Of a stretch of 23,919 nt of DNA, positions 4,584 to 15,935 are shown piece by piece (the first letter of the stretch is position 1; each line of letters opens with the position of its first letter). A program made the position numbers and the translations under genes. The stretch lies in the IMG/VR virus record IMGVR_UViG_3300046007_012629, positions 1 through 23,919 of that record. One strand, 5' to 3'. The notes beneath the pieces are model-generated. The model was not told the DNA's origin, made no database searches, and worked only from the letters and a program-made list of their open reading frames with translations. This DNA comes from a virus.

Positions 4584-5045
4584 TTAAACATTCCAAATTT
4601 CGGAAAATCCTTCATCGATTGTAGGAAAAGCAAAACCTGAAATCATGTCGGATACTGCTCCCCATGGGATGTTTTTACCGGGTCTACTGCTTAAACGACT
4701 CAGAAGTTCCTTATTATCTGGAGTTTTAAATACCACTGCAATGTGCTTATAATCAGGCAACATACCAAACTTTCTGCGACGGCTAGTAACAGTAGTAGAA
4801 GTTTGATCCCAAATTATATCTTTATTGCTTTCTGCAGCACGTACAACTTGTTCAGCCATGAGTTTTACAGCAGTGGGCATGTATTCTTTAAAGACTTCGT
4901 TATATGTCTTCCCTGATTCTTTTGCGTACTGTTCTACTAGATTATCGGTAGAAACAATTACGCAATCTTTAGCCCACAGCTGATTTGTGATCCAGGTAGA
5001 CTTTCCGCTACCTGGTACTCCCACTAGTTGATAACAAATAGGCAT
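4584..5045 (-). CDS. P-loop polynucleotide kinase-like protein (RNA 5' end healing)
   Basis: A 153-residue P-loop kinase of the T4 Pnkp / zeta-toxin-like type. It has Walker A G9-VPGSG-K15-S, an IIWDQTSTT strand near 85-93 comparable with the D-N/Q-T motif of polynucleotide kinases, an SRRRKF segment, and a lid-like SRPGKNIP near 121-128. T4 Pnkp carries a HAD phosphatase domain after the kinase; it is absent here and the protein stops after the kinase fold. The gene begins 1 nt after the RNA ligase stop, and a metallophosphoesterase gene lies just upstream, so it is probably the 5'-phosphorylating part of a three-gene RNA-repair cassette. Activity on RNA rather than DNA is inferred from context. 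Confidence 0.75.
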   Translation of the reverse strand: MPICYQLVGVPGSGKSTWITNQLWAKDCVIVSTDNLVEQYAKESGKTYNEVFKEYMPTAVKLMAEQVVRAAESNKDIIWDQTSTTVTSRRRKFGMLPDYKHIAVVFKTPDNKELLSRLSSRPGKNIPWGAVSDMISGFAFPTIDEGFSEIWNV

Positions 5046-5046
5046 G

Positions 5047-5952
5047 TTAATGCTCCAAAAATTTTCTAATCCAAGCTAATCTGGATTGTTCATCTAAATT
5101 AGTATATTCTGCAATATTGGCACGTATGGCATCTACCAAAGGATAGTATTCTTCATCGAGGCTCAGTTTAATGTCTTTGTTTAAATCTACTAATTTGTCT
5201 GTTCGTGGGTTACGTGCTACCCACTTTGAAGTCAAGTAGTATGGTGACTTGATCTTAGCACTTACATCATCTACAGTGTAGAATACAAATCCTTCGTGAC
5301 GGACGTTTTTAGTATGTTCAACTAGGTTACCCACTGTAGTTTCTACTGCTTCTGGAACATGACATTTAAACACTTTGCTTAGGAGCCATAGTGTATCCTT
5401 ATCGTGCCCGACCTTGCTACCCCATGTGTTTTTACGATAGCCTAGCACATACATACCAGGTACTTCTGGAATGATATGAGGATCATCGGGATGAACACAC
5501 TCAAACATCACAGTCATGCCCTGCATATCTGTTCTAGTAAATCCCAGTTGCCAGTCAGACCAAGACATGTGTTTGAGCATCATTTCCTTAGCCATAGCAA
5601 CATAGTCGCTGTCAGTGCTACCAGTAGTAGATACTAAAATATCATCATTGTGCCAAGCACAAGCAACCATAAATCCGTTTACCTTACGAAATGCAGTAAC
5701 TTTGGTATCTGGAGCAAGCACTGGTGCTTCCTTCTCTATACCGTAGTTATAGATCTTAGTAAAAGGATATGACACTAAGTTGAAATCGGCATCTACGATA
5801 CTCCCCCGGCATTCGGCAATGTAATTGTTCCACAGGTTATCGTAGAATACTTTTTTCTTATACTTTAACACATAGATGCCAGGACCAGCCGGCTTCATAT
5901 TCACTAACTTAGGATTTTTCGATACATAATTTTTAAGTTCATTCGCGAACAT
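5047..5952 (-). CDS. rnlA: RNA ligase, Rnl1-related
   Basis: A 301-residue covalent nucleotidyltransferase. Motif I is K90-V-N-G93, which takes the AMP; upstream is AECRGSIVD (residues 46-54), typical of T4 Rnl1-type ligases. Motif III-like TVMFECVHP spans about 147-155, motif IV EGFVFY 220-225 and motif V AKIKSPYYL (K233, K235) 232-240. It would seal 5'-phosphate and 3'-OH RNA ends with ATP. It is shorter than T4 Rnl1 (about 374 residues), so the C-terminal specificity domain is reduced. It overlaps the metallophosphoesterase gene by 14 nt and precedes the kinase by 1 nt. Together with the tRNA arrays this points to repair of cleaved tRNAs. The symbol is given by analogy with T4. Confidence 0.85.
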   Translation of the reverse strand: MFANELKNYVSKNPKLVNMKPAGPGIYVLKYKKKVFYDNLWNNYIAECRGSIVDADFNLVSYPFTKIYNYGIEKEAPVLAPDTKVTAFRKVNGFMVACAWHNDDILVSTTGSTDSDYVAMAKEMMLKHMSWSDWQLGFTRTDMQGMTVMFECVHPDDPHIIPEVPGMYVLGYRKNTWGSKVGHDKDTLWLLSKVFKCHVPEAVETTVGNLVEHTKNVRHEGFVFYTVDDVSAKIKSPYYLTSKWVARNPRTDKLVDLNKDIKLSLDEEYYPLVDAIRANIAEYTNLDEQSRLAWIRKFLEH

Positions 5953-6702: not shown

Positions 6703-7404
6703 ATGTTATTACATATATATTCCGAATACAAAAATAAAACTTTAAATTGGTTACCTAGTGATACTGAAGAATTATATTTAAAAAATTTAAAAAATGAATT
6801 TTATCGATTAGAAAAATTTGGTTGGATTGACAATAAAATTCAATATAAATTTAACAGTAACGGATTTAGAGGTGATGAAATTACAACTAAACCATCCTTA
6901 CTTGCTTTAGGCTGTAGTTTCACTGTTGGAATAGGACTACATTATGAACAAACTTGGCCGTGGCTTGTAAGTCAAATATTACAATTAAATTGTATAAACA
7001 TGGGGTTGGGTGGTAGCAGCAATGATACTGCATTTAGACTTGCTGATTATTATATACCAAAAATTAAACCAAGAATAGTGTTTTTACTAAGTCCAGAAAA
7101 AGAAAGATTAGAAATACTTAATTATGAAGATCAATCTATTTTTTATTGGCCAAGTATGTCCCCAATTGATGCATTTTATCGTAGTTGGATCATAAATGAA
7201 AACAATGCATTATTGGATGAAAAGAAAAATATTTTAGCAATTAAACAACTATGTTCAGAAAATAAAATAAAATTTGTACATGCAAGTGTACAATCCTTTT
7301 TCAAAAACTACGCTAATCACCCATTTGATTATGCTAGAGATTTAATGCATTTAGGTCCTAAAAGTCAAAAATTAATTACAGAACATATCATGTCAAGTTT
7401 GTAA
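6703..7404 (+). CDS. SGNH/GDSL-type hydrolase-like protein
   Basis: One of few plus-strand genes. With the ATG at 6703 it has 233 residues; an in-frame TTG at 6637 has no ribosome site. SGNH blocks are visible: G70-C-S72-F-T (block I nucleophile), GLGGSSN107D (block III Gly/Asn) and D213-L-M-H216 (block V). The N-terminal NSNGFRGDE segment (residues 51-59) is common in phage and LPS-linked SGNH proteins. The family removes or transfers acyl groups on sugars or lipids, so it may trim host surface glycans or modify phage-borne sugars. It is very AT-rich and faces the minus-strand tRNA-Arg gene tail to tail. Family confidence is good; substrate is unknown. Confidence 0.7.
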   Translation: MLLHIYSEYKNKTLNWLPSDTEELYLKNLKNEFYRLEKFGWIDNKIQYKFNSNGFRGDEITTKPSLLALGCSFTVGIGLHYEQTWPWLVSQILQLNCINMGLGGSSNDTAFRLADYYIPKIKPRIVFLLSPEKERLEILNYEDQSIFYWPSMSPIDAFYRSWIINENNALLDEKKNILAIKQLCSENKIKFVHASVQSFFKNYANHPFDYARDLMHLGPKSQKLITEHIMSSL

Positions 7405-7406
7405 AA

Positions 7407-7481
7407 TGGCCCGACCGGAGGGAATCGAACCCCCATTCGCGCTTTAGAAGAGCGCTGTCCTATCCGTTGAACGACGGTCAG
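7407..7481 (-). tRNA. tRNA-Arg (TCT)
   Basis: Acceptor CTGACCG/CGGTCGG, anticodon stem GCGCT/AGCGC with loop CTTCTAA, T-loop TTCGATT, encoded CCA. Reads AGA. Confidence 0.93.
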
Positions 7482-7491
7482 TATGTTTACA

Positions 7492-7520
7492 ATATTACAG
7501 TTAAATTCAATATTTGTCAA
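7492..7520 (-). promoter_or_regulatory. Host-type promoter for tRNA-Arg
   Basis: Minus strand TTGACA (7520-7515), 17-nt spacer, TAATAT (7497-7492), about 10 nt before the tRNA-Arg 5' end. Confidence 0.6.
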
Positions 7521-7526
7521 CTTTGC

Positions 7527-7601
7527 TGGTGCTGATGATCGGGATCGAACCGATGACTTCTATCTTACCAAGATAGCGATCTACCACTGATCTACATCAG
7601 C
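7527..7601 (-). tRNA. tRNA-Thr (GGT)
   Basis: Acceptor GCTGATG/CATCAGC, anticodon stem CTATC/GATAG with loop TTGGTAA, T-loop TTCGATC, encoded CCA. Its first 10 nt overlap the 3' end of the DUF3445 gene. Confidence 0.95.
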
Positions 7602-8335
7602 AAAATTCGATTAAGTATTGGCTTAATATGTGTTAAATTTTTATACTGCAAGACAGAATCACTCATCGAGTTTACACTCATTTTAAGTTGATTACCTAAC
7701 AAGTGCCAAACTTCTACTAGAGGAACTACATCTATTTTTACAAAAAACAGACTGGTTTGATTATCACCTATGGCGGCAGTAGTCTGCGTCTCTACTCTCA
7801 AAAAAAGATCATTAATACTGGTAGGTACATTCGATGACTTATACACAGGATGATTACTTAAACCCTCTGTTTGTGTAATGGTCCACACTTGCCTAGTAAA
7901 TGATCCTTTGGCAGTATCTGCCATTGTGCTAGACAGTTTGTAACTGGACTGCACTAACTTGTCACCGTCTGCTACAGGTTTATGAATGTCTGATAAAGTT
8001 AACCCTATTCTTTCTGCAGGTACCCAACTGCTAGGGAAACAAAAACATATTGCAGACAAAATACCTCGGTGCATAATGGCAACATCTTCTTCAAACATTA
8101 AAGCAAAATCTTTGATAGATGTTTTGGGAGGTAGATTTAAATATTGGCAAGCTTTTTCAATAAGATGATTAGTTTTGCTTTCAAAAGTTTCTGCATAAAG
8201 GTCAGAATCAAATTTTTCTAATTCAACAATTTTTTGATCAAGATATCGTTTATCGGGTTGCGAATTGAATACGGGCCCATGATTCTGTTTCATCATGGGC
8301 CGTGTTGTATAAGGTATTTGAATATCAACTCGCAT
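7592..8335 (-). CDS. DUF3445 protein (heme-dependent oxidative N-demethylase-like)
   Basis: A 247-residue protein with hallmarks of the DUF3445 family: CFPSSWVPAERIGL (99-112), SDIHKPV (116-121, H118), FTRQVWTI (146-153) and FLRVETQT (178-185) followed by a FFVKI strand. Characterised members bind heme in a PAS-like fold and demethylate small amines. Which ligand residues are kept cannot be judged by eye, and a phage role is unknown. The stop codon lies 10 nt inside the tRNA-Thr gene. The start overlaps the upstream small gene by 11 nt. It could act on methylated amines or osmolytes of the host, or be a repurposed heme sensor; both are speculation. Confidence 0.7.
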   Translation of the reverse strand: MRVDIQIPYTTRPMMKQNHGPVFNSQPDKRYLDQKIVELEKFDSDLYAETFESKTNHLIEKACQYLNLPPKTSIKDFALMFEEDVAIMHRGILSAICFCFPSSWVPAERIGLTLSDIHKPVADGDKLVQSSYKLSSTMADTAKGSFTRQVWTITQTEGLSNHPVYKSSNVPTSINDLFLRVETQTTAAIGDNQTSLFFVKIDVVPLVEVWHLLGNQLKMSVNSMSDSVLQYKNLTHIKPILNRILLM

Positions 8336-9888: not shown

Positions 9889-9957
9889 TCTTTGTTAAAC
9901 AAAGAAACGTTACTAGACGTATATGAAAAAACATTATTATGTGTTTTGATATAAATC

Positions 9958-10689: not shown

Positions 10690-10776
10690 TGGCGGAGAGT
10701 ACAGGACTCGAACCTGTGCGCCCATTTCTGGACGGCGGATTAGCAATCCGGTGCATTACCACTCTGCCAACTCTCC
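10690..10776 (-). tRNA. tRNA-Ser (GCT)
   Basis: Acceptor GGAGAGT/ACTCTCC, anticodon loop TTGCTAA, variable arm CCGTCCAGAAATGGGCGC, T-loop TTCGAGT, G73 and CCA. Confidence 0.93.
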
Positions 10777-11251
10777 TTAAACTTAATATGGGACACGGTC
10801 TTGTTCTGTTATTTAAGAGTGAGCGGTAAGGGGTCTGTAATTTCATACCGCAACTCTCCCCTGTTATACTGGCGACCTGTAGGGGTAACGATCCCCTCTG
10901 AATATCCTGCGTGACAGGCAGGTGTCCACTCCATGCAGACCCACAGGCCCGGAATTCGGGTGCTGCCTCCCTGCGGCGGTAACTATAGCAGATCAAGTTT
11001 ATTACATCACTTGCATCCGGGTGTATACGCCTTCTGCATCAGTAAATCAACCATCACGCCTGCCCTCCATCCGCTTCCCGACCAGGGAGGATTGTCGCAT
11101 TGCCAGCGCCGGTTAGGTTGGACCGCAGCTTTCACTGGAGCAGATTCTCTGGCCTCATTACTGAGGGTAAGCCCTTGCTCGAACCACCCGTGGTTATCAC
11201 ACCACTTCCTATCGTGTGGGTCACACTAGCTGTTGATTAGACAGCACGTCT
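10777..11251 (-). ncRNA. Large structured RNA candidate between tRNAs
   Basis: 475 nt without credible ORFs. On the minus strand it folds into many perfect hairpins: GCTGT/ACAGC with 7-nt loop (11245-11229), CCTCA-GTAA-TGAGG with a GNRA loop (11166-11153), CCTGC/GCAGG with 7-nt loop (10922-10906), AGGGG/CCCCT with loop ATCGTTA, the same as a T-loop in this array (10897-10881), and GAGT-GCGGTA/TACCGC-ACTC (10856-10817). CCCC/GGGG pairing between 10858-10862 and the loop of the last stem makes a pseudoknot. The GNRA loop exists only on the minus strand, in line with the neighbouring tRNAs. Size, complexity and tRNA proximity recall GOLLD/ROOL-type phage RNAs; identity is not shown. Confidence 0.6.
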
Positions 11252-11343
11252 TGGTGCCTCTGGTAGGATTCGAACCTACGACCTGCCGCTTATCTGGCGC
11301 TACGGGGTATAAATCCGCTGCTCTTCCACTGAGCTACAGAGGC
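11252..11343 (-). tRNA. tRNA with enlarged variable region, anticodon read as TAT (Ile?)
   Basis: Acceptor GCCTCTG/CAGAGGC, D-arm GCTCAGTGGAAGAGC and T-arm GTAGG-TTCGAAT-CCTAC are canonical, with CCA. The anticodon loop TTTATAC suggests TAT, but the stem has an A-C pair next to the loop. About 16 extra nt (GCGCCAGATAAGCGGC) sit between the anticodon stem and AGGTC. That is odd for any class I tRNA; it may be an insertion or a novel long variable arm. Isotype is uncertain. Confidence 0.7.
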
Positions 11344-11350
11344 AAAACTT

Positions 11351-11435
11351 TGGTGGAGTGTACTGGGATCGAACCAGTCGTGCCCGAAGGCGGCGGATTT
11401 ACAGTCCACTGCATCACCATTGATGCTTCCACTCC
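11351..11435 (-). tRNA. tRNA-Tyr (GTA)
   Basis: Acceptor GGAGTGG/ACACTCC (G7-A66 mismatch), anticodon stem GTGGA/TCCGC with loop CTGTAAA, long variable arm CGCCTTCGGGCACG, T-loop TTCGATC, encoded CCA. Confidence 0.93.
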
Positions 11436-11443
11436 AAATTCTT

Positions 11444-11539
11444 ACCATATTGAAACACACTACCTGCTCTGCCGGCCACTATCACTTACCGCGGAGTTGT
11501 GCGCCTTCCAGCTCCTTTCGTAATGCGTTTCAATATGGT
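11444..11539 (-). repeat. Inverted-repeat hairpin H1 between tRNA-Leu and tRNA-Tyr
   Basis: Arms 11444-11461 and 11522-11539, 18 positions. Two deviations are G-U/U-G wobbles on the minus strand and A-C mismatches on the plus strand. The tRNA-Leu ACCA end forms the base of the stem. Enclosed 60 nt are unique. Confidence 0.8.
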
Positions 11540-11623
11540 GCCAGTGACCGGACTCGAACCGGTACGCCGTTTTAGGGCGAGGGATTTTAAGTCCCTTGTG
11601 TCTACCTATTTCACCACACTGGC
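11536..11623 (-). tRNA. tRNA-Leu (TAA)
   Basis: Acceptor GCCAGTG/CACTGGC, anticodon loop CTTAAAA on GGGA/TCCC, variable arm CGCCCTAAAACGGCG, T-loop TTCGAGT. Its CCA is shared with hairpin H1. Confidence 0.95.
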
Positions 11624-11637
11624 AAAAAACTAACTGT

Positions 11638-11699
11638 GTTAAAGATCGTTTACTGCACTATTTCATTAGTATAAAGAAATAATGAATATTTGTCAAACA
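11638..11699 (-). promoter_or_regulatory. Host-type promoter, copy 1 of a 62-bp direct repeat
   Basis: Minus strand TTGACA, 17-nt spacer, TATACT, then about 30 conserved nt (ATGAAATAGTGCAGTAAACG). Almost the same as 14110-14170. It drives tRNA-Leu and what follows. Confidence 0.8.
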
Positions 11700-11705
11700 G
11701 TTTTT

Positions 11706-11782
11706 TGGGGTGTCTAACGGGTTTCGATCCCGTACTGACAGTTTCACAGACTGCCGTGCAGAGCCACTACACTATAGACACC
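11706..11782 (-). tRNA. tRNA-His (GTG)
   Basis: Acceptor GTGTCTA/TAGACAC with the His-specific extra G-1 opposite C73, anticodon loop CTGTGAA, encoded CCA. The T-loop is ATCGAAA, lacking T54. Confidence 0.93.
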
Positions 11783-11787
11783 ATTGT

Positions 11788-11863
11788 TGGTGCCGCCCCC
11801 TGGGATCGAACCAGGTTCCACGGTTCTTCAGACCGTTGCTATGACCACATCAGCTAAAGCGGC
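11788..11863 (-). tRNA. tRNA-Phe (GAA)
   Basis: Acceptor GCCGCTT/GGGCGGC (two G-U pairs), anticodon stem ACGGT/ACCGT with loop CTGAAGA, T-loop TTCGATC, encoded CCA. Confidence 0.95.
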
Positions 11864-11875
11864 ATAATTGTTTAT

Positions 11876-12003
11876 GGTTACTATCGTCTGTTTAAGAGGC
11901 TAAAGCGCCTCTCCTACTGGTCAACTTCTCTGGGGCTAGCAGAAAGTAGGATTCGGTATTACCCTGATAGTTGGGCTACTTGGCCACGTATTTTTACAGA
12001 ACC
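11876..12003 (-). ncRNA. Structured RNA unit closed by GGTT/AACC
   Basis: About 128 nt with no ORF. Closing pairing TATGGTT/AACCATA (12006-12000 with 11879-11873), then ACTATC/GATAGT, CCTACT/AGTAGG and AGAGGC/GCCTCT hairpins, all on the minus strand between hairpin H2 and tRNA-Phe. It uses the same TATGG...CCATA frame as the other units. Function unknown. Confidence 0.45.
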
Positions 12004-12047
12004 ATATCGAAACACATTAATACCTGTATAGTGTGTTTCGATATGGT
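12001..12047 (-). repeat. Inverted-repeat hairpin H2
   Basis: Arms 12001-12018 and 12030-12047 with an 11-nt loop, the most compact copy. Both arms carry a paired change (T-A to C-G) relative to the consensus, i.e. covariation. One pair is a wobble only on the plus strand. Confidence 0.8.
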
Positions 12048-12187
12048 GGCAGGTGCTCATCTCCTGCTGCTATCGTGCTCCGCTGTTCACGTTGTACAGC
12101 CTATATCTTTAAGGGAACGACCCATCCTAGTCACCAGCACGATAGTTATAGGTTCAGCATTTGAGCAGAATGCAATATTTTCTCACC
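12045..12187 (-). ncRNA. Structured RNA unit closed by GGTG/CACC
   Basis: About 143 nt between hairpins H3 and H2. Closing TATGGTG/CACCATA, an internal 10-bp stem CTATCGTGCT/AGCACGATAG (12146-12137 with 12078-12069), a CCTATA/TATAGG pairing, and GCAGG/CCTGC next to the closing stem in the place of a T-arm, but with a 9-nt loop. No ORF. Confidence 0.45.
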
Positions 12188-12273
12188 ATAGTTCAACTCA
12201 CTTGAACTGTTCTTCAGCCCGGATCTGGCTATCTCTGGGTATCCACCAGCGAATCAGTATGAGTTGAACTATG
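12187..12273 (-). repeat. Inverted-repeat hairpin H3 (divergent sequence)
   Basis: Arms 12187-12200 and 12260-12273, 14 bp perfect (CATAGTTCAACTCA). Same architecture and CCATA start as the main family but a different stem sequence. Confidence 0.75.
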
Positions 12274-12620
12274 ATGCCACTCCCTAAAGTGGTGTCATAG
12301 TGTCTTCTTGATCTTGGGCGACAGCCCTCAAGCCTAGACGTCCGTATGCGAAGTCCGCTATCACTCGCATATTTTAGTTGACGGGAATCTCACCCGCCAC
12401 GACCTAGTGTGCTACACAGACTAGGGATATGTCTGTGTAAGCATGTCGGGACTCTTTAAATTTTTATTTTGTATGGCCAGTGTAGACACATCAAGGCATC
12501 ACCCTCTCCCGCTACTCCGTTTACCAAGATGGCTGTTCGCTACTGGTCGATTGATGGTCGATCTTCACTACTTTGTTTTTACGGGCCACTGGTTGTCCTT
12601 CCCACTAGACTCTGCTCCCA
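12274..12620 (-). ncRNA. Structured RNA unit of about 345 nt
   Basis: ORF-free except for overlapping spurious plus-strand frames. Minus-strand stems: ACACAGAC/GTCTGTGT (8 bp), CTTGA-GGGC/GCCC-TCAAG, TATGCGA/TCGCATA, CCACT/AGTGG, CCAGTG/CACTGG spanning the 5' half, and GCGGG-TGAGATT-CCCGT, a T-arm-sized hairpin that keeps the U54...A58 spacing of a T-loop. Closed by TATGGTG/CATCATA with one G-U. It lies between hairpins H4 and H3. Function unknown; a large phage RNA domain is the best guess. Confidence 0.5.
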
Positions 12621-12755
12621 CCATATTGAAACACACTCGACCGTCTCTCTTTTACACAGCAGACCGGAGCGACCGGGGCTTGAACTGTTTATGCGATATC
12701 CTGCTTCGAAACAGGGACGGACCGAGCGCCACAGTGTAAGTGTGTTTCAATATGG
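12621..12755 (-). repeat. Inverted-repeat hairpin H4
   Basis: Arms 12621-12637 and 12739-12755, 17 bp perfect (consensus CCATATTGAAACACACT). It encloses about 100 unique nt with inner hairpins such as CCGG/CCGG and CCTG/CAGG. Confidence 0.85.
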
Positions 12756-12859
12756 CGGTTACTGATGGAGTCGAACCATCACTCCGCTCTCGCCGTTAAC
12801 CTATTCGGAACACATTGCTAGCAATGTGCCGTCTGGGACCAGATCACCCACTAATAACC
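12753..12859 (-). tRNA. tRNA-Ser-like gene with abnormal anticodon arm
   Basis: 107 nt: acceptor GGTTATT/AGTAACC, D-arm TGGG/CCCA, T-arm GATGG-TTCGACT-CCATC, G73-CCA and a long variable region of about 28 nt. The anticodon arm is the palindrome CACATTGCTAGCAATGTG. With a normal 5-bp stem the loop would be 10 nt (TTGCTAGCAA) instead of 7. It may be a pseudo-tRNA, a tRNA with an expanded loop, or a tRNA-like RNA with another job. It is bounded on both sides by hairpins H5 and H4. Confidence 0.55.
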
Positions 12860-12937
12860 ATATTGAAATACACTGACCGCTCTGTTGCTGCTGTATGCCT
12901 ACAAGTTGTATCCATTCGTCCAATGTATTTCAATATG
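12859..12937 (-). repeat. Inverted-repeat hairpin H5
   Basis: Arms 12859-12874 and 12922-12937. A C-G pair of the family is replaced on both sides by U-A, and one further pair is a U-G wobble only on the minus strand. Confidence 0.8.
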
Positions 12938-12989
12938 TTATATGCTACCAGCCCGATAGTGGGCTGTATCACAGTTAGTTGATATACCA
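12934..12989 (-). ncRNA. Short RNA unit between H6 and H5
   Basis: About 56 nt with near-complete closing pairing TATGGTATAT/ATATAACATA (9 of 10) and an AGCCC/GGGCT hairpin. It ends in ACA instead of CCA. It looks like a reduced tRNA-like unit. Confidence 0.4.
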
Positions 12990-13116
12990 TATTGAAACAC
13001 ACTGACGACAAATTTTCACCCAGTCTGTCTAAGACAACCCCCGGGCACCTTTATCATCTTCCAGGCAGCATCACTACTGCTGGTGAAGATGGCATAGTCA
13101 ATGTATTTCAATATGG
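12987..13116 (-). repeat. Inverted-repeat hairpin H6
   Basis: Arms 12987-13003 and 13100-13116. Two deviations are U-G wobbles on the minus strand, mismatches on the plus. It encloses about 96 unique nt. Confidence 0.8.
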
Positions 13117-13318
13117 CGGTTCTTGTGGAATCTCACCACCCGATACGATAAGAGCGTTACTAGTCTCTGAGATTTCGGTCCAGTCACGGTCCTTGAGCCT
13201 CAGGTTACGCGGCGTTTGATGTTCCTTACTACTGTTGACAAGACAGCGTTTGAAGTTCATTACTACCACACCTAGCAGAGTCACTGAGAGCTTATCGTTC
13301 AGCCCTTTATGGAGAACC
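13114..13318 (-). ncRNA. tRNA-like RNA of about 205 nt with acceptor stem and GCCA end
   Basis: The ends form an acceptor-like stem GGTTCTC/AAGAACC (6 of 7 pairs) with a GCCA tail, and a T-arm-sized hairpin GTGG-TGAGATT-CCAC directly before the 3' acceptor strand, as in a tRNA. The interior is far too long for a tRNA: an 8-bp stem ACGATAAG/CTTATCGT (13298-13291 with 13152-13145), two 21-nt direct repeats differing at two bases (13212-13232 and 13246-13266), and TGAGATT complementary to AATCTCA upstream. The form resembles a tmRNA-like RNA, but no tag-encoding frame is seen. Confidence 0.5.
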
Positions 13319-13522
13319 ATAAGAATGACAACTAGATCCTGCCATCACATACATTGGCAGCATTTTCCGCAAATTATCCCGGGTGCGGAGTGAACATTGC
13401 TGTTCTTAGGATCCGTGAGTGATAGTGCTACTTGTTTGCTACTAGGCTAATTAGGCCCAACTCACCAGGATTTCGAGGCCCTGGCTTTCGCACATCTCAC
13501 AACCTAATTGTCATACTTATGG
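13317..13522 (-). repeat. Inverted-repeat hairpin H10 (divergent sequence)
   Basis: Arms 13317-13331 and 13508-13522, 14 of 15 pairs (CCATAAGAATGACAA type). It encloses about 176 nt of ORF-free DNA. Its outer ends lie in a duplicated TTATGGAGAACCATA at 13308-13322 and 13517-13531. Confidence 0.7.
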
Positions 13523-13525
13523 AGA

Positions 13526-13624
13526 ACCATATTGAAACACACTAGCCCCTGAGTCTCCCGTTTTAACCAGGCGGTTACTTGTCCTTTCCTGCTTTCGGCT
13601 CAGACTAATATGCTTCAATATGGT
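13526..13624 (-). repeat. Inverted-repeat hairpin H7
   Basis: Arms 13526-13543 and 13607-13624. All three deviations are G-U or U-G wobbles on the minus strand and A-C mismatches on the plus. The loop has CTGAG/CTCAG. Confidence 0.85.
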
Positions 13625-13712
13625 AGATTGGAATCGAACCAATCGCTCGGGCATGGATGCCTACCCACCTTTCGGTTCTCGGACTTCCCGTATGCTTCCA
13701 TTACATTATACC
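13621..13712 (-). tRNA. tRNA-like gene with canonical T-arm, isotype undetermined
   Basis: T-arm GATTGG-TTCGATT-CCAATC is canonical and a D-arm-like ATGTAATGGAAGCAT is present, with an ACC-GAAA-GGT hairpin and a GGCAT/ATGCC variable-arm-like stem. The acceptor is only GGTA/TACC before it merges into the flanking repeat arms, and no 7-nt anticodon loop on a 5-bp stem can be placed. Pseudo-tRNA or specialised tRNA-like RNA. Confidence 0.45.
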
Positions 13713-13816
13713 ATATTGAAACACACTGACTGCATTGAAACAGTCCACCCTGCCACATGGCAGAGCTGAGTCCACTCTCGAGGCGTGGCCTACGCCTTAG
13801 TGTGCTTCAATATGGT
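13710..13816 (-). repeat. Inverted-repeat hairpin H8
   Basis: Arms 13710-13727 and 13799-13816, one deviation, a G-U wobble on the minus strand. The loop holds GGCGT/ACGCC, CTGCC/GGCAG and GACTG/CAGTC hairpins. Confidence 0.85.
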
Positions 13817-13925
13817 GGAGACCGCCTATGTACAGGCATGACCCATACATCGTCCACGTTATCCGCTTATCTCAGTTCGTCCGTTGGTTTTATCCGCTGT
13901 ACACCGATGATAAGTTTCTGTCTCC
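13813..13925 (-). ncRNA. tRNA-like RNA unit with ACCA end and non-canonical interior
   Basis: 113 nt closed by GGAGACA/GGTCTCC (6 of 7 pairs) with an ACCA tail. A TGCCT/AGGCG hairpin with loop GTACAT sits in the T-arm position, but there is no TTCGA loop. CTTATC/GATAAG and TGTACAG/CTGTACA pair inside, in a partly overlapping (pseudoknot-like) order. Confidence 0.45.
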
Positions 13926-14021
13926 ATAGTGAAACACACTACCAGTCCCGGGGACTCGAACCCCTTTACTCTTGATAGTTTCCCGACATCTCAGTCTGGC
14001 AAGCAATGTGTTTCAATATGG
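13924..14021 (-). repeat. Inverted-repeat hairpin H9 after tRNA-Glu
   Basis: Arms 13924-13940 and 14005-14021, 15 pairs plus one minus-strand U-G wobble and one mismatch. The tRNA-Glu CCA is part of the stem. The loop contains the T-armed mini-RNA at 13942-13999. Confidence 0.8.
13942..13999 (-). ncRNA. Mini tRNA-like element with T-arm but no anticodon arm
   Basis: 58 nt inside hairpin H9: acceptor-like CCAGACT/GGACTGG (6 of 7 pairs) and a perfect GGGG-TTCGAGT-CCCC T-arm, with only about 28 nt between, too short for D and anticodon arms. No CCA follows. Confidence 0.45.
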
Positions 14022-14093
14022 TACACCGTATGGGAATCGAACCCATCTTTCCACCTTGAAAGGGTAGCGTCCTAACCGATAGACGAACGGTGC
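14019..14093 (-). tRNA. tRNA-Glu (TTC)
   Basis: Acceptor GCACCGT/ACGGTGT, anticodon stem CTACC/GGTGG with loop CTTTCAA, T-loop TTCGATT, encoded CCA shared with hairpin H9. Confidence 0.95.
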
Positions 14094-14109
14094 AAAATTT
14101 GTACAACTT

Positions 14110-14170
14110 GTTAAAGATCGTTTACTGCACTATTTCATTATTATAAGAAAATAATGAATATTTGTCAAAC
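14110..14170 (-). promoter_or_regulatory. Host-type promoter, copy 2 of a 62-bp direct repeat
   Basis: Minus strand TTGACA, 17-nt spacer, perfect TATAAT, followed by the same 30-nt initial transcribed region as at 11638-11699. It drives tRNA-Glu and the hairpin-rich RNA region. Confidence 0.85.
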
Positions 14171-14177
14171 TGCTATT

Positions 14178-14253
14178 TGGTGGTAATGGTTGGACTCGAA
14201 CCAACGATAGTCTCCGTATGAAGGAGGTGCATTAGCCACTATGCTACATTACC
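14178..14253 (-). tRNA. tRNA-Met (CAT), elongator-like
   Basis: Acceptor GGTAATG/CATTACC, anticodon loop TTCATAC, T-loop TTCGAGT, encoded CCA. An Ile-type (lysidine) CAT tRNA cannot be excluded. Confidence 0.9.
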
Positions 14254-15756: not shown

Positions 15757-15935
15757 ATATTCATAACGCACTCATAAGAATGCGTATAATAAAACAGACT
15801 TTAGCAATCTGTTTTATTATAACCGATTTTTACTACCAACGTTATCGCCGCTAGCCTCTCATCCTCGGTTCCGCCCTCATTAGTAGCTGATGTTTAACGT
15901 GCCAGCAGGGTCGCGTTCCCTATCACACGTACTAC
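15757..15935 (-). other. Intergenic region with hairpins
   Basis: No ORF. A perfect 13-bp AT-rich hairpin (15786-15798 with 15808-15820, 9-nt loop) may be a bidirectional terminator or a processing site before tRNA-Trp. An ACGTG/CACGT stem enclosing AGGG/CCCT lies between about 15885 and 15930. Possibly a short structured RNA. Confidence 0.4.

Follow-up and report, generated by a model that had tools for sequence, protein, structure and literature searches.

Two stable RNAs, rnaC and rnaD (species 1 and 2), lie directly after tRNA-Arg in the transfer RNA (tRNA) cluster of phage T4. Both are small RNAs of unknown function, and they are, to our knowledge, the sole characterised parallel to the elements described here. 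The large structured RNAs GOLLD (RF01998) and ROOL, also of unknown function, occur near phage and prophage tRNA islands (PMC12286853). Here we report a family of hairpin elements in the tRNA array of a viral DNA stretch of 23,919 nucleotides (IMG/VR record IMGVR_UViG_3300046007_012629, positions 1 to 23,919), hereafter termed the window. The window represents part of the genome of a tailed phage and contains T4-like genes; its UvsX is closest to those of Rak2-like jumbo phages, with an identity of 65-70%. The minus strand carries all tRNA genes of the window, and ~2.1 kb between tRNA-Phe (11788-11863) and tRNA-Glu (14019-14093) contain no plausible gene.

The hairpin elements represent a widespread modular class of phage RNA that is absent from Rfam and from the named phage genomes searched. 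We propose, with somewhat better than even confidence, that structured RNA modules form an array in the window and are probably transcribed together with the tRNAs, and that 18-bp helices act as clamps stacked on the acceptor end of the preceding tRNA. The architecture is new: a common helix, joined to tRNA CCA ends, clamps the modules, which are exchanged as whole units. A literature survey, confined to open-access papers, found no account of such elements, so an earlier description is possible.

Compared to this array, T4 rnaC and rnaD have a similar position right after a tRNA in a phage cluster, and rnaC bears a T-arm, GGGTTCGAATCCC, near its 3' end. Comparison of rnaC and rnaD with the modules revealed matches in the T-arm only, with no match by nhmmer. 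Unlike the modules, the two T4 RNAs lack the 17-bp CCA/UGG closing helix; they are only two in number, and we know of no swapping of them. Among the features tested, GOLLD and ROOL resemble the modules in nothing but their tRNA neighbourhood and unknown function. They are single large defined folds (GOLLD often >800 nt), whereas the modules are small, many and variable in order. An Rfam search of window positions 10700-14200 gave no match of the modules to GOLLD, ROOL or any other family at E-values up to 5, and among the matches listed for 14 loci at the gathering threshold there is none beyond tRNA, tmRNA and group I introns. One locus, L151, has a permuted tmRNA (RF04321, 82.7 bits) in its phage tRNA array at 1997-2228 on the minus strand, in addition to two group I introns (7381-7572 and 12747-12981). 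An origin of the modules as fragmented ribosomal RNA was rejected, as blastn against E. coli 16S, 23S and 5S yielded 520 matches compared to 407 for the reversed control, all of them weak.

Distribution of the hairpin family

The ten inverted-repeat hairpins of the original prediction were all found in the window (Table 1). Eight of them have arms that are variants of CCATATTGAAACACACT, as had been described, and the remaining two, at 12186-12274 and 13317-13522, have other arms that start with CCATA or TCATA. The enclosed segments range from 11 to 172 nt, which agrees with the predicted lower end and corrects the upper end from 176 nt.

A scan of IMG/VR with the exact 17-base arm, a pattern that itself holds no tRNA information, retrieved at least 120 stretches, nearly all of which are tRNA-rich. 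Two-arm patterns for three arm subtypes matched 54, 38 and at least 120 stretches, respectively, from contigs of up to 524,565 bases. The hairpins reside on both small and very large phage contigs, such as L254 (524,565 bases), L038 (399,796) and L268 (383,411). In total, 381 elements were extracted from 156 loci, and nearly all of them lie within tRNA arrays. Their length varies from 45 to 169 nt, with a median of 89 nt (first set, n=259), and the arm consensus CCATATTGAARCACATT/AGTGTGTTTCAATATGG forms a fully paired helix. Another arm subtype, CCATATAAAAACACATT/AGTGTGTTTCTATATGG (IMG/VR, for example L198-L273), is at least as common as that of the window, with at least 120 stretches. In this subtype, an A-C opposition is retained at position 8 of the stem, possibly a conserved A-C wobble.

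The junction between hairpin and tRNA is precise. Among 170 left arms for which a tRNA 3' end was detected in range, 152 start at one exact offset at which the CCA is shared, the corresponding figure in a later contig set being 53 of 138; moreover, 42 right arms overlap the following tRNA by its two initial bases. A scan for 16-bp CCAT...ATGG hairpins that is independent of the arm sequence revealed 56 extra hairpins, compared to 14 in the reversed control. Many of these, with arms of entirely different sequence, again begin at a tRNA CCA, and two are the divergent-arm hairpins of the window. On the minus strand of the window, the own CCA of tRNA-Glu and of tRNA-Leu provides the first three bases of the adjoining hairpin, in line with the earlier claim that arms abut tRNA ends. 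The companion claim, that the other arm abuts the 5' G of the next unit, holds solely for the tRNA-like unit at 12756-12857 and fails for tRNA-Tyr, which lies 9 nt past the hairpin at 11445-11538. The unit at 12756-12857 has a seven-pair acceptor stem, GGTTATT/AGTAACC, whose GG comes from one arm and whose end is the CCA of the next arm.

Phage-specific matching of the arms was considered and rejected, with mean differences of 3.37 within and 3.48 between phages lying inside the permutation range. As arms are no closer within than between phages, no phage-specific recogniser of the arm sequence is indicated. Neither the window array nor any of 21 interior families matched the 50,697 named phages, and two gapped two-arm patterns had no match in GTDB species genomes.

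Selection on the closing helix and its strand

Within elements, 97.9% of arm positions pair, compared to 92.4% upon re-pairing of arms between elements (maximum of 200 re-pairings, 92.8%). In a set of 62 diverse arm pairs, 93.7% of the cells pair versus 80.7% after shuffling. Both-sided changes occur in 16 of the 18 stem pairs, and doubly changed cells amount to 134, compared to 30.9 for shuffled arms; neither value was reached in any of 500 shuffles. The rows of this set had been picked for good pairing, so the test was rerun with arms chosen by sequence only, giving 96.9% pairing compared to at most 92.5%. Held-out contigs, which were fetched later and from which the elements used for searching were excluded, gave 95.1% versus at most 85.6%. 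By contrast, when right arms are matched to the left arms of the elements that follow, pairing is 92.2%, similar to random re-pairing, indicating that it is the interior, not the stretch between hairpins, that lies within the conserved helix. The hairpins are not chance, since random re-pairing of arms always falls below the observed value and more than 120 viral stretches contain the motif, nearly always within tRNA arrays.

The mismatch pattern of the arms further depends on the strand. On the tRNA-sense strand, G-U pairs account for 9.7% and A-C oppositions for 1.3%; counted per element, the wobble favours the tRNA strand 259 times and the opposite strand 11 times, the counts in a later set being 88 and 12, respectively. 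In the window, the ten minus-strand G-U pairs noticed before were reproduced in six of the eight like-armed hairpins, with a single opposite wobble in 12002-12046. The divergent-arm hairpin at 13317-13522 adds one further minus-strand G-U. The stem position reported as C-G, U-G or U-A is present as position 12, and the reported double change from T-A to C-G corresponds to U-A to C-G at position 7 of 12002-12046.

Selection at the RNA level on the hairpin family is well supported by these comparisons. A covariation model built from the hairpins is upheld on homologous contigs, as expected of the proposed stem-loop family, and the G-U strand tracks the tRNA strand, as expected if the minus strand is the functional form in the window. 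Such a strand-biased wobble is expected of single-stranded RNA, or of single-stranded DNA of that strand, but not of a double-stranded palindrome.

Structured stretches between the hairpins

Homologues of the non-tRNA stretches of the window were found at 72 loci, where their order differs. Three of these stretches are conserved structured modules with double changes in their predicted pairs, and a fourth is a non-coding stretch of the tRNA array that is partly kept in other contigs (Table 1). Within this last stretch, ARAGORN calls a tRNA-Asp at 10870-10949, without Rfam support. When folded to minimum energy, the ~2.1 kb as a whole form a chain of closed domains.

Such a fold could also belong to one giant ornate RNA of ~2.1 kb (~11.9-14.0 kb), unrelated in sequence to GOLLD and ROOL but built alike, with the repeated helices as its peripheral arms. 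The closed domains are contiguous with almost no linkers, structured RNA is conserved between the hairpins as well, and GOLLD and ROOL likewise lie near phage tRNAs (PMC12286853). Yet the module order varies between contigs, numerous elements occur singly, with an ordinary tRNA on either side, and neither GOLLD nor ROOL is among the Rfam matches listed, so we regard a single giant RNA as unlikely. The earlier suggestion that the hairpins are domains of a giant RNA is weakened by the shuffled order and the lone elements, although its corollary that the neighbouring stretches are structured RNA stands. The region is more aptly described as a series of structured modules, some of them sharing a common closing helix.

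Interiors of the hairpins

The 381 elements fall into ~191 interior clusters, the largest of which has 12 members. Several clusters display their own compensatory changes along with very conserved loops. A TTCRANY T-arm is present in 11 of the 191 clusters, compared to 0.3 in shuffles. In eight of these 11, it sits 0-3 nt before the right arm, which is the geometry of a tRNA with the T-arm stacked on the acceptor stem. ARAGORN predicts a tRNA inside nine of the 381 elements; the window hairpin interiors received no tRNA call from either ARAGORN or Rfam, and the T-arm in the hairpin at 13924-14021 is ~12 nt before the right arm. The interiors had been described as unrelated and unique. They are indeed mutually unrelated, but many recur in other phages. 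In the element at 4920-4998 of L033, the interior contains TATGCGATGAAAGTC, which recalls domain V of group II introns, possibly by chance.

A conserved helix around differing interiors might alternatively be mere punctuation, with the hairpins acting as processing signals, such as RNase III sites, between tRNAs, and the loops as filler. The T4 tRNA transcript is acted on by RNase III, and one window hairpin has a loop of just 11 nt. However, the interiors recur across phages and contexts, and several of them covary internally and have T-arm geometry, unlike filler. Moreover, most tRNA spacers in the hairpin-bearing arrays do without a hairpin (1411, compared to 132 with one), which makes a role restricted to punctuation doubtful.

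Exchange of modules between arrays

Comparison of homologous interiors revealed 291 pairs with neither flank in common and 14 with both, in addition to 65 from near-identical arrays. Conversely, 25 element pairs have the same two flanks around unrelated interiors. One example is the 11-nt interior of 12002-12046 in the window, which is replaced by 29 nt in L099; another is L036 versus L083, with flanks up to 100% identical. A single clean empty site was also found, as L026, L013 and L139 lack a hairpin that L128 and L143 have at the same place; it is marked by an 8-nt ATACCATA repeat, which may reflect homology instead of target duplication. Judging from their sequences, the hairpin elements are mobile in evolution, because interiors recur, whole hairpins have been swapped within identical flanks and one site is empty. 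The original prediction had excluded a miniature inverted-repeat transposable element (MITE) on the ground of unique interiors. This argument fails, given the recurring interiors, the whole-hairpin swaps and the empty site.

The hairpins might thus be mobile palindromes at the DNA level, similar to MITEs, repetitive extragenic palindromic (REP) sequences or integron attC sites, which as single-stranded hairpins would serve site-specific recombination at tRNA CCA ends. This would account for whole-element swaps, the empty site and the same interior in many contexts, and a G-T bias is expected also for one DNA strand. Like MITEs and REP palindromes, the hairpins are dispersed palindromic elements without proteins, and their presence or absence at otherwise identical sites is seen in the empty site and the 25 interior swaps. 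However, direct repeats between element flanks, expected from target-site duplication, equal the re-paired control, as does pairing between the flanks. The strand-biased G-U pairing and the lack of target duplication beyond chance are points against a conventional MITE, and the hairpins further differ from MITEs and REP palindromes in being fixed at tRNA CCA ends and having conserved RNA-like interiors.

Integron cassettes offer another likeness, as their shuffling units are split by imperfect palindromes of tens to >100 bp with a variable inner part, a size range that the hairpins match. Core sites of attC follow RYYYAAC/GTTRRRY, and attC hairpins have extrahelical bases. The arm consensus CCATATTGAARCACATT/AGTGTGTTTCAATATGG shows neither, and on inspection the helix ends CCATATT...AATATGG are unlike the core consensus. 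Unlike cassettes, the hairpins mostly recur without the preceding unit, the integron-like linkage test giving 26 UI pairs, 5 ID pairs and 291 I-only pairs, with the linked pairs few and redundant, and their helix is fused to a tRNA CCA. No recombinase was seen beside the elements, though none was sought. Together with the T-arms in tRNA geometry and the covarying interiors, which are RNA features, these differences render an origin as DNA palindromes quite improbable. The last alternative, that recombination has left behind degenerate tRNA copies in the form of these units and hairpins, would explain the T-arms and CCA in some interiors and spacers but is hardly credible, as the strong double-change covariation and cross-phage conservation are unexpected under decay and 180 of the 191 clusters have no TTCRANY arm.

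A model for the clamped module array

As the sequences show, each hairpin module has a closing helix of 17-18 bp, which can take in the discriminator base. The 5' strand of this helix opens with the CCA of the tRNA or tRNA-like unit that precedes the module, and GG terminates its 3' strand. It is selected as a helix on the tRNA-sense strand. The interiors group into numerous recurrent families; several of these contain covarying pairs of their own, and in some a T-arm lies just before the closing helix, as in a tRNA. Whole modules, comprising arms and interior, have been traded between array positions and phages. We propose that the array and the tRNAs are transcribed as one precursor, in which the closing helix would stack on the acceptor stem, shield the 3' end of the pre-tRNA and flag the module so that nucleases specific for double strands or active in tRNA maturation cut it out. 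As for T4 rnaC and rnaD, excision would release free tRNAs along with stable module RNAs; the latter may act in the infected cell. It is unusual for a pre-tRNA that the CCA lies within a helix, and 3' maturation is accordingly predicted to be endonucleolytic, not exonucleolytic. Homologous recombination, which is efficient in T4-like phages, would be the simplest and probable route of exchange, acting at the shared arms.

Several observations weigh against this model. A hairpin of sense-strand single-stranded DNA would yield an identical G-T bias. Interiors fold little better than mononucleotide shuffles, with about equal mean z-scores of -0.42 and -0.48 on the two strands. The lower folding energy of the sense strand (124 versus 56) was dropped as strand evidence, as the equal z-scores point to an effect of composition. 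The evidence for structure in the interiors comes from covariation in the larger clusters, and many clusters are singletons. Furthermore, no hairpins were found in the 15-20 kb tRNA-array stretches of the named Rak2-like jumbo phages Phosso, Atu_ph07, Vibrio 2.275.O, XbC2 and CBB, to which the window is related by its UvsX, so that the hairpins are dispensable to such phages generally. Transcription of the array, its processing by RNase III or another nuclease, and its function are inferred.

The likeliest target of the modules is the host tRNA-handling or translation machinery, because they sit with tRNAs and are partly tRNA-like. A bolder proposal, which we offer tentatively as a minor possibility, is that large phages trade a swappable arsenal of functional RNAs, of which ~190 families have been sampled here, each carried by one universal helix that stacks on the CCA. 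Against host defences that target RNA or tRNA, the RNAs might serve, for instance, as tRNA-like decoys or as inhibitors. If so, the arsenal would be the RNA counterpart of a shuffled counter-defence gene island. The modules make it testable why phages keep stable non-tRNA RNAs such as T4 rnaC and rnaD inside tRNA clusters. They also suggest module swapping as a route by which structured RNAs evolve, and raise the question of how a tRNA precursor is processed when its CCA end sits inside a helix.

Features of the window

Table 1. Elements of the tRNA array in the window (plus-strand coordinates). Double changes between hairpins refer to RNAalifold structures of small alignments without a shuffled control and are weaker than the arm statistics.
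Feature	Position	Strand	Interior (nt)	Minus-strand G-U pairs	Remarks
Non-coding stretch in tRNA array	10780..11250	-			parts kept in up to 16 other contigs (best ~11040-11280)
Hairpin module, CCATATTGAAACACACT-type arms	11445..11538	-	60	two	5' CCA is the CCA of tRNA-Leu (11536-11623)
tRNA-Leu(taa)	11536..11623	-			its CCA (11536-11538) is the hairpin start
Conserved structured RNA module between hairpins	11888..12000	-			7 contigs; double changes in 10/20 pairs
Shortest hairpin module, CCATATTGAAACACACT-type arms	12002..12046	-	11		same flanks in L099 enclose a different 29-nt interior
Conserved structured RNA module	12049..12167	-			9 loci; double changes in 12/17 pairs, 7 sequences
Hairpin module, divergent arms TCATAGTTCAACTCA/TGAGTTGAACTATGG	12186..12274	-			interior homologous to an L063 element
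Conserved structured RNA module, T-loop-like hairpin	12277..12401	-			19 loci; double changes in 7/18 pairs, 12 sequences
Hairpin module, CCATATTGAAACACACT-type arms	12621..12755	-	101		interior family of 10 members in all
tRNA-like unit between two hairpins	12756..12857	-			from sequence, by inspection
Hairpin module, CCATATTGAAACACACT-type arms	12858..12938	-	47	one	
Hairpin module, CCATATTGAAACACACT-type arms	12987..13116	-	96	two	
Hairpin module, divergent arms CCATAAGTATGACAATT/AGTTGTCATTCTTATGG	13317..13522	-	172	one	homologues in L040 and L156
Hairpin module, CCATATTGAAACACACT-type arms	13527..13623	-	63	three	
tRNA-like unit with T-arm GATTGGTTCGATTCCAATC	13624..13710	-			no tRNA call by ARAGORN or Rfam
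Hairpin module, CCATATTGAAACACACT-type arms	13711..13815	-	71	one	
Hairpin module, CCATATTGAAACACACT-type arms, tRNA-like interior with T-arm GGGGTTCGAGTCCCC	13924..14021	-	64	one	5' CCA is the CCA of tRNA-Glu
tRNA-Glu(ttc)	14019..14093	-			its CCA (14019-14021) is the hairpin start

Beyond the elements of Table 1, Rfam recognises a class II tRNA at 11354-11435, which reads as tRNA-Tyr (GTA) and was missed by ARAGORN. Two short hairpins obtained weak scores with the arm model, one at 15783-15823 by tRNA-Trp at one end of the cluster (E 4.6e-5) and the other at 9918-9955 by tRNA-Lys (E 0.016).

The window also encodes, at 4584-5952, an RNA ligase of the T4 Rnl1 type (PF09511) and an adjoining AAA_33/polynucleotide-kinase-like protein. 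An RNA ligase and a polynucleotide-kinase-like protein form the usual tRNA repair pair of phages. In addition, the segment at 7592-8335 codes for a protein with a domain similar to the alpha subunit of haem-dependent oxidative N-demethylase (PF11927, E 2.4e-24), which is unexpected in a phage.

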